A stretch of DNA of 28,530 nucleotides from a virus: IMG/VR virus record IMGVR_UViG_3300028735_000027, positions 1 to 28,530 of that record; one strand, written 5' to 3'. The notes under the pieces are model-generated. The model was given only the letters and a program-made list of their open reading frames with translations. It did no database searches and was not told where the DNA came from. This document shows positions 2,219 through 13,134 of the stretch, piece by piece; positions within the stretch are counted from its first letter, which is position 1; each line of letters starts with the position of its first letter. The translations under genes were made by a program, and so were the position numbers.

Positions 2219-2527
2219 ATGCAGCATAACTGGCTGAAAGAGAATGTCGGACCGATCCTGGCCCTCATCACCGTGGTGGGCACCTTCGCCCTCTTTGCCT
2301 TAGCATTTTTCCTCAAGGTGGACGGTGCCAATGAGAAGGTCTTGTTCATGGTCATTGGGGCCCTTTCATCCATCGCCACGACGGTGGTTGGGTATTATTT
2401 TGGAAGCTCCGCCGGGAGCGCCCGTAAGACAGAACTACTGAAAGGCGATCGCCAAGAACAAGGCGAACAAGACGATCTTGTACAAGACAATGCCCCCAAG
2501 CCGGGGGCAATTTTGTCTGGCAGATAG
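2219..2527 (+). CDS. Holin-like two-pass membrane protein
   Basis: A 102-residue protein with two hydrophobic segments (about residues 12-34 and 43-62) and a charged, Gln/Asp-rich cytoplasmic tail. The second segment ends in GYYFGSSAGSARKTELL, a motif I associate with small phage holins that follow endolysins. It would form the inner-membrane lesion that releases the endolysin. The ATG at 2219 lies 2 bases after the endolysin stop, with AGGAGG inside the endolysin's last codons; an upstream in-frame start at 2156 is less likely. A terminator hairpin overlaps its last codons. Confidence 0.85.
   Translation: MQHNWLKENVGPILALITVVGTFALFALAFFLKVDGANEKVLFMVIGALSSIATTVVGYYFGSSAGSARKTELLKGDRQEQGEQDDLVQDNAPKPGAILSGR
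2491..2517 (+). terminator. Rho-independent terminator at the end of the lysis operon
   Basis: TGCCCCC (2491-2497) pairs with GGGGGCA (2503-2509) around a 5-base loop and is followed by ATTTTGTCT. It overlaps the 3' end of the holin gene and lies just before the attP region, so it probably ends late transcription before the attachment site. Confidence 0.75.
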
Positions 2528-2533
2528 CTGCTT

Positions 2534-2551
2534 GGGGCCTCTAAGGGGCCT
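2534..2551 (+). repeat. Left arm: two GGGGCCT repeats
   Basis: GGGGCCT occurs at 2534-2540 and 2545-2551, start-to-start 11 bp. These bases can also be drawn as a weak hairpin followed by TTTTT, so a second terminator is possible. Sharing the motif and spacing with the right arm favours integrase binding sites. Confidence 0.6.
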
Positions 2552-2602
2552 GTTTTTCTTACTCCTCTTTTTATTCTATTGCTTGATATCATTGATAAAT
2601 TT

Positions 2603-2633
2603 TGGTGGAGGCGGCGGGAGTCGAACCCGCGTC
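2603..2633 (-). other. 3' end of tmRNA gene (ssrA) forming the attachment core
   Basis: Read on the minus strand, 2633-2603 gives the last 31 bases of a bacterial tmRNA: GACGCGGGTTCGACTCCCGC (T-arm with stem GCGGG/CCCGC and loop TTCGACT), then the acceptor strand CGCCTCC, A and the encoded CCA. The rest of a tmRNA is absent; upstream there is a T-rich stretch and then the integrase. It is therefore the copy carried by the phage to restore host ssrA after integration, not a functional RNA gene. Confidence 0.85.
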
Positions 2634-2686
2634 TATGGTTTTTTTTTGATTTTATTTCCATATATTGCGTATTCCGATTTTTTGCG

Positions 2687-2720
2687 GGGGCCTAACTGGG
2701 GCCTGACCGTCGGGGCCTAA
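2687..2720 (+). repeat. Right arm: three GGGGCCT(A/G)A repeats
   Basis: The 9-base motif occurs at 2687-2695, 2698-2706 and 2712-2720, with spacings of 11 and 14 bp. The last copy overlaps the integrase stop codon (TAG, 2719-2717 on the minus strand). These are probable arm-type binding sites for the adjacent integrase. Confidence 0.65.
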
Positions 2721-4510: not shown

Positions 4511-4821
4511 CAGTATGTGATTACTCTCTGGAGTTTGTTTCTGACAAAAACGGCATATTGTTTTTTGCCGAATTGGCCGACGCTGGAATAATCCCAGACT
4601 TCTATTCGGCCTTCAGGCCCCTCAGACACGGCCTTTGACCACGGGCGGCCCCAGGCAGCCTCGACCTGATCATAGGTCATGCCAAGCTGAACATTGCCGG
4701 ATCGCACAGCAGATTTGACCTCATCTGTCCACCAGGGCTGCGGCTGACGGCTGGCAAGACCGCCAGGCATGCCTACGCAGCCACAAAGTACAACAATCAT
4801 CAAACAGGCTACAGTTTTCAT
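4510..4821 (-). CDS. BamE/SmpA-like lipoprotein
   Basis: A 103-residue protein with a lipoprotein signal: basic start, hydrophobic core and a lipobox at VVLCGC (Cys about residue 15). The mature part contains VQLGMTYDQVEAAWGRP and a later beta-rich segment (IEVWDYSS...YAVFVRNKLQRV), the pattern of the SmpA/OmlA/BamE-like fold. A strong AGGAGG sits 5 bases before the ATG. It would be anchored in the cell envelope, probably the outer membrane. Lipoprotein genes near the integrase of temperate phages are often expressed in lysogens and can change the surface or block superinfection; that role here is inferred. Confidence 0.8.
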   Translation of the reverse strand: MKTVACLMIVVLCGCVGMPGGLASRQPQPWWTDEVKSAVRSGNVQLGMTYDQVEAAWGRPWSKAVSEGPEGRIEVWDYSSVGQFGKKQYAVFVRNKLQRVITY

Positions 4822-4994
4822 GTCATCCTCCTATGGCTCGCTCACAATATTTGTGCCCACCTGTTGATATTTGCCGGTTGCCGTGATTACCGGCGAAAAT
4901 TCTTATCTGCCGCCCACCAGCTTAACGCAGCCTCCATGGCAACGCATCACGGCTATCCCGGACCGGCAGCCGGGGAAAAGGAGGGGCGGCAAAA

Positions 4995-12708: not shown

Positions 12709-13067
12709 TCATCACCGGACAGCCGGTCACCAAGAAAAACTCAACCGTGGTGCGCTGCTTGAATGGCAAGCCACTGGTGCTGCAATCCAGGGCATACCGG
12801 GCCTACGAAAAGAAAGCGGTCAGCGCAATCACGGCCGAGCAGGGGAAAACATTCGTCGGACCGGTCAAGGTGAGGGTGCTTTATTGGCTCAAAGACCAGC
12901 GCCGCCCGGACCTGACAAACCTGCTCCAGGCCACGGCTGACATCCTGGAAAAAGCAGGCGTGATCGCCAATGATCGGAATATCATGTCGTGGGATGGTTC
13001 GAGGATAATGGGAATAGACCGAAATAATCCAAGAACAGAGATTGAAATCCGGGAAAATGGGGCGTAG
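12696..13067 (+). CDS. rusA: RusA-like Holliday junction resolvase
   Basis: A 123-residue endonuclease of the RusA family: GQPVTKKNS near the start, and the acidic core RRPDLTNLLQATADILEKAG followed by VIANDRNI. RusA cuts four-way junctions formed during phage replication. The catalytic acidic residues expected are Asp-x-Asp plus a later Asp; here Asp72, Asp82 and Asp93 are present, but the second Asp of the DLDN motif is Thr74. AGGA lies 7 bases before the ATG. The last codons and the stop are shared with the 5' end of a tRNA-Pro gene. Confidence 0.85.
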   Translation: MRKLIITGQPVTKKNSTVVRCLNGKPLVLQSRAYRAYEKKAVSAITAEQGKTFVGPVKVRVLYWLKDQRRPDLTNLLQATADILEKAGVIANDRNIMSWDGSRIMGIDRNNPRTEIEIRENGA

Positions 13068-13134
13068 CGCAGCCTGGCAGCGCGCCTGCCTTGGGAGCAG
13101 GAGGTCGGCGGTTCAAATCCGCCCGCCCCGACCA
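13058..13134 (+). tRNA. tRNA-Pro (anticodon TGG)
   Basis: A complete 77-base cloverleaf: acceptor TGGGGCG/CGCCCCG (first pair T-G), D-arm GCGC...GCGC, anticodon stem CCTGC/GCAGG with loop CTTGGGA giving anticodon TGG, T-arm GGCGG/CCGCC with loop TTCAAAT, and an encoded CCA. It closely follows the bacterial tRNA-Pro(UGG) pattern. Its first 10 bases are the last codons and stop of rusA, so RNA processing must cut the rusA message. It is probably a phage-carried tRNA that supports late gene translation. Confidence 0.93.

Follow-up and report, generated by a model that had tools for sequence, protein, structure and literature searches.

The window analysed here is a whole 28,530-nucleotide stretch of viral DNA (IMG/VR record IMGVR_UViG_3300028735_000027, positions 1 to 28,530). 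Towards its left end, an integrase gene lies beside a short copy of a bacterial tmRNA 3' end, and five copies of the word GGGGCCT are arranged around that copy. The features of the region are:

2491 to 2509, plus strand: strong hairpin, a probable terminator, at the end of a lysis-side gene (RNA fold z -3.25; terminator scan)
2534 to 2540, plus strand: putative outer left arm-type site, GGGGCCT (AGGCCCC on the integrase strand), exact match
2535 to 2551, plus strand: terminator-like hairpin of the left arm pair, with a T run after it (terminator scan)
2545 to 2551, plus strand: putative inner left arm-type site, 11 bp from the outer left site, exact match
2603 to 2633, minus strand: putative attP core, the 3' end of the ssrA (tmRNA) gene
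2687 to 2693, plus strand: putative inner right (integrase-side) arm-type site, exact match
2698 to 2704, plus strand: putative middle right arm-type site, 11 bp from the inner right site, exact match
2712 to 2718, plus strand: putative outer right arm-type site, 14 bp beyond the middle site, overlapping the integrase stop codon
2717 to 3847, minus strand: tyrosine integrase gene, 376 amino acids from the start common to its relatives (the longest frame runs to 3886)

Positions 2603-2633 read TGGTGGAGGCGGCGGGAGTCGAACCCGCGTC. Its reverse complement, the 31-mer GACGCGGGTTCGACTCCCGCCGCCTCCACCA, agrees at 31 of 31 positions with a chromosomal tmRNA 3' end from genome G018, in keeping with the earlier proposal of a 31-base ssrA core. 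G018 also carries an integrase that is 51% identical to the integrase of the window. No prophage form of the window phage was found. A tRNA-Pro (TGG) gene was called by ARAGORN at 13058-13134 (plus strand), far from the attP region. At 2531-2544, around the outer left site, CTTGGGGCCTCTAA may resemble part of the T7 late terminator.

The sequence-only reading had described five GGGGCCT copies in one orientation around the ssrA core, 11 bp apart on the left and 11 and 14 bp apart on the right, at similar distances from the core and with the last copy overlapping the integrase stop. The exact positions agree with each part of this description: all copies are on the plus strand, starting at 2534, 2545, 2687, 2698 and 2712, the gaps from the core to the nearest arm are 51 bp on the left and 53 bp on the right, and the last copy runs into the TAG stop codon (minus strand, 2717-2719). 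On the integrase strand, the left (distal) pair starts 51 and 62 bp from the core. The same reading spoke of helical spacing on both sides, which applies to the two 11-bp pairs and has to be limited to them, since 14 bp is not a whole number of helical turns. Because a single core lies between two complete arms, we infer that the contig is the uninserted form of the phage.

GGGGCCT is not generally enriched in the window, given that nine copies were seen on both strands against 8.5 expected, and five of these nine lie within 185 bp. The genome-wide count, proposed earlier as a check, thus found no dense occurrence of the motif elsewhere. A total at chance level is a point in favour of a GC-rich word having clustered by chance; however, when the 290-bp region was put through 5,000 dinucleotide shuffles, five copies of a 7-mer never arose (one shuffle gave four), and in 30 shuffles of the full window no 7-mer exceeded three copies per 190-bp stretch. 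Elsewhere in the window, no 7-mer occurs five times within 190 bp. The claim that five copies in 190 bp are beyond chance is therefore well founded, and with the same layout recurring in relatives, as described below, we regard the probability of a chance cluster as negligible.

The integrase is a tyrosine recombinase, matching PF00589 (Phage_integrase) with an E-value of 3.4e-20 and 72.9 bits against a cut-off of 27.1, and the gene also has a PHROG match to integrase. Its predicted model (pLDDT 88.5) has the Tn1549 Int as its closest solved structure (Z 21.6 over 277 residues, covering residues 91-376) and matches the core-binding and catalytic domains of lambda Int (1z19) with a Z of 20.4 over 260 residues. 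The first Arg, the late His and the Tyr nucleophile (R231, H352 and Y361) are invariant across the integrase family. Box II, at residues 325-331, reads YQGTKHS, so that the usual first His of HxxR is missing and Lys replaces Arg. The first His is likewise missing in 49 of 50 matched relatives, nearly all of which have D, E, Q or N instead, and Lys stands for Arg in eight of the 50, including L300, an element with both att copies. The first 92 residues are Cys-rich (CxxC...CxxC) and are modelled as strands (4-6, 36-41 and 44-48) and a helix (60-76). We searched this domain for the arm-binding fold, which has three strands and one helix. In a fold search of its own, the N-terminal model matched nothing significantly, known arm-binding domains included; its best match, to an AP2 DNA-binding domain, was weak (Z 3.7), and weak matches of this kind do not show the fold to be new.

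Single-protein scans of viral and genome collections found no close relatives of this integrase, and neither did a scan with a 49-amino-acid fragment. Viral contigs with related terminases contained no relative of it. A DNA search against annotated phages gave no match, and all protein matches in annotated phages were less than 30% identical. The closest relative, the viral integrase L202 (57% identical), was recovered with a bait alignment, A3, that held two made-up variant rows; this alignment was used solely to find L202 and L203, and no conclusion depends on those rows. An alignment containing L202 then led to 17 bacterial loci, from genomes with labels such as Deltaproteobacteria, Nitrospirae, Planctomycetes and Thermodesulfobacterium. 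With a profile of 15 integrases, further members turned up in two phyla (28 of 395 genomes in one and 44 of 396 in the other).

Many of these relatives carry short direct repeats where the integrase gene ends, often directly before a tRNA-like piece. Within -120 to +200 of the stop codon, an exact direct repeat of at least 8 bp at 11-bp spacing was present in 28 of 64 distinct related integrases, compared with 9 of 761 control gene ends (taken from the same genomes, with base composition unmatched) and an average of 0.25 in shuffled family regions. About half of the related integrases are without an exact 8-bp repeat, and the window itself is counted only with a 7-bp word. The next peak after 11 bp was a spacing of 13 bp, in six of the 64 integrases. 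Examples include CTAGCCCCA, present three times in L215 at spacings of 13 and 11 bp and spanning the stop codon, TGTCCCCA, present three times in L222 with the same spacings, GACTATCCCCA, present twice at the integrase end of L224, and ACCGTCACC, present twice in both L226 and L227. Three-site arrays of the 13+11 type occur in L215, L222 and L284, and the spacing of 14 and 11 bp in the window fits this pattern. As such arrays recur in relatives, the outer right site of the window, 14 bp from its neighbour, is probably real.

In L202, L205, L214, L248, L276-L278, L283, L284 and L296, the putative arm repeats lie within the last integrase codons. With repeats placed in this way in many relatives, the tail of the integrase protein appears to be partly dictated by the DNA site.

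For nine elements, a second copy of the core was located about 0.8 to 25 kb upstream of the integrase gene; these are the elements in which a distal core was found and do not represent a random sample. In all nine, the integrase-side repeat is also present no more than 100 bp from the distal core, with at most one mismatch and in the same orientation, whereas only 0.01-0.10 matches would be expected. The distal pair is exactly 11 bp apart and starts 46-61 bp from the core in seven of the nine, compared with 51 bp in the window. Putative arm sites thus flank the core on both sides in the window (two and three) and in all nine relatives with both att copies, so that comparing attP regions across related integrases, another check that had been suggested, revealed the same layout. 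In seven elements, the gene that ARAGORN calls at the distal core is intact; it is a tRNA-Asp in three, a tRNA-Ser in two, a tRNA-Asn in one and a tmRNA in one. The tmRNA case is L289, whose intact gene has the tag ANNELALAA. L250 instead has its intact gene, a tRNA-Leu, on the integrase side, and no intact gene was called by ARAGORN in L277. The cores of L229 and L289 are only about 2 kb apart, and both may be remnants. At L289 / L319, the core pair spans about 2 kb beside the intact tmRNA gene, which may be what is left of an element or an element of very small size.

The use of tRNA-Asp, tRNA-Ser, tRNA-Asn and other targets by the relatives ties the arm motif to the integrase family and not to tmRNA targeting. 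The suggestion of arm sites for an integrase family that targets tmRNA is therefore upheld by the comparison as regards the arm sites and falls as regards their being specific to tmRNA. We also examined 114 places in viral contigs with an ssrA core, most of which are probably intact tmRNA genes and not attP sites. Strong two-sided repeats were found only in the window and in L055; the other hits were weak, and the overall total of 18 compares with 11 expected from shuffles. L055 is an independent tmRNA-site viral contig, in which TAGGGGTGA occurs twice on each side of the same core, 11 bp apart (arm-like pairs at 4700-4900, minus orientation). Its integrase is a more distant, distinct, tmRNA-site enzyme without the Cys-rich stretch.

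Across dozens of relatives, the comparison shows a conserved spacing and a putative arm repeat whose sequence changes along with the N-terminal domain of the integrase. In the 29 integrases for which a repeat could be defined, the similarity of the motifs was more strongly correlated with N-terminal identity (Spearman 0.56) than with catalytic identity (0.38). In partial Mantel analyses, which were run on related sequences and correct for ancestry only in part, the N-terminal correlation was 0.44 (p 0.001) with catalytic identity controlled, and the catalytic correlation disappeared (0.065, p 0.23) with the N-terminal domain controlled. The nearest N-terminal neighbours of the window integrase in this set use CGTCCCCAA, TGTCCCCAG and CTAGCCCCA. 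L202, whose record ends at the integrase stop and so covers the integrase-side sequence only to that point, has repeats of AGCCCC at a spacing of 11 bp. All of these share CCCC, the heart of AGGCCCC. Such covariation would be expected if the N-terminal domain binds the repeats, and it suggests that this domain determines the arm sequence.

The repeats might instead be parts of terminators, with the hairpin and T run of the left pair ending the lysis operon and the right copies acting likewise at the integrase end. As GGCC is palindromic, adjacent copies are able to pair, and the left pair with its T run (2535-2551) does score in the terminator scan. However, RNA folding of the left pair was no better than that of shuffles, the hairpin just upstream of it (2491-2509) is stronger, and the right copies are without a T run in the direction of the integrase gene. 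Furthermore, repeats of the relatives such as ACCGAGAGTG, TACAGCACA and CGTCATCA are not self-complementary and cannot form hairpins, yet they keep their place, spacing and direction on both sides of the core, which argues against termination as the common function and makes this explanation very unlikely. Since the left pair does score as a terminator-like hairpin, its double use as arm sites and terminator is possible.

Another protein, for example an excision factor or a repressor of the integrase gene, could also be the reader of the repeats, as excision factors and regulators do bind the attP regions of other phages. With the rest of the protein controlled for, the repeat varies together with the N-terminal domain of the integrase itself, which makes such a reader very unlikely, and the symmetry of the sites on both sides of the core also speaks against it.

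We therefore consider that the region is very probably an intact phage attP with the tmRNA 3' end as its core, in which the repeats would be arm-type sites for the integrase. This assignment draws on the symmetrically placed repeats with their spacing, on a core that matches a tmRNA end exactly, on the same layout in integrated relatives with both att copies and on the N-terminal covariation, and it upholds the complete attP that had been proposed. On this assignment, the N-terminal domain would bind the five same-direction repeats (AGGCCCC on the integrase strand) in their two-plus-three arrangement about the core, and the core-binding and catalytic domains would act on the 31-bp tmRNA 3' end between the arms. 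Bridging of both kinds of site would bend the attP into an integration complex, which would recombine with the host ssrA, leaving ssrA intact and the integrase gene at the far end of the prophage. We infer the physical binding, the bending, the crossover position and the roles of the sites in integration and excision.

Similar arrangements are known from mycobacteriophages. The cluster K1 phages CrimD and Adephagia have a tmRNA-targeting integrase with the tmRNA 3' end as core, and their attP has a pair of putative 11-bp arm sites on each side, one pair being inverted; substitutions in the N-terminal part of the integrase were proposed as the reason for differences in arm sequence (PMC3203893). 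The K1 attP resembles the window in its core and in having arm-site pairs on both sides. However, K1 has two sites on each side, one inverted pair and the core 5' of the integrase gene, whereas the window has two and three sites, all direct, and the core 3' of the gene, and the arm sequences and integrases also differ. The attP of Pixie (K3) has two and three arm sites in direct orientation, a sixth that is inverted, and a tRNA-Lys core (PMC3203893). Pixie is thus like the window in its two-plus-three direct sites, and unlike it in the sixth inverted site, the tRNA-Lys core and an integrase of another group. Given a mycobacteriophage tmRNA attP with arm pairs and a two-plus-three array that is direct in all but one site, the arrangement in the window is of a known kind.

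The lambda integrase makes separate arm and core contacts, with arm sites on both sides of the core. The window has putative arm sites on both sides as well, and the model of its integrase matches the lambda core-binding and catalytic domains, whereas the arm sequence is unrelated and the number and arrangement of sites are different. Direct repeats near the element ends are also a feature of Tn916 and Tn1549, and the Tn1549 Int is like the window integrase in being the closest solved structure to its model. Tn916 and Tn1549, unlike the window phage, are not known to use a tmRNA 3' end as core, and the N-terminal domain of the window integrase differs from theirs in beginning with a Cys-rich stretch. 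Arm-binding domains are present in most phage and ICE integrases, and an arm-binding N-terminal domain has been described for the Tn916 subgroup (PMC8138268).

In conclusion, what this analysis adds is a family-wide spacing rule together with the covariation of repeat and N-terminal domain. The rule is that of direct repeats 11 bp apart flanking a tRNA or tmRNA 3' end, with one set at or near the integrase stop, and it yields likely arm sites in dozens of elements from several phyla. To our knowledge, few integrases have mapped arm sites. More tentatively, and with somewhat less than even confidence, we suggest that the Cys-rich N-terminal domain of this integrase family forms an arm-reading module of its own, tied to a fixed spacing of 11 bp (and 13+11), and that its residues relate to the arm sequence in a way that can be read. 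If so, arm sites would be predictable from the protein across several phyla. With paired changes in arm and N-terminal domain, how such domains read DNA becomes directly testable, and the pairing would aid the prediction of att sites and the choice of integrases as tools.
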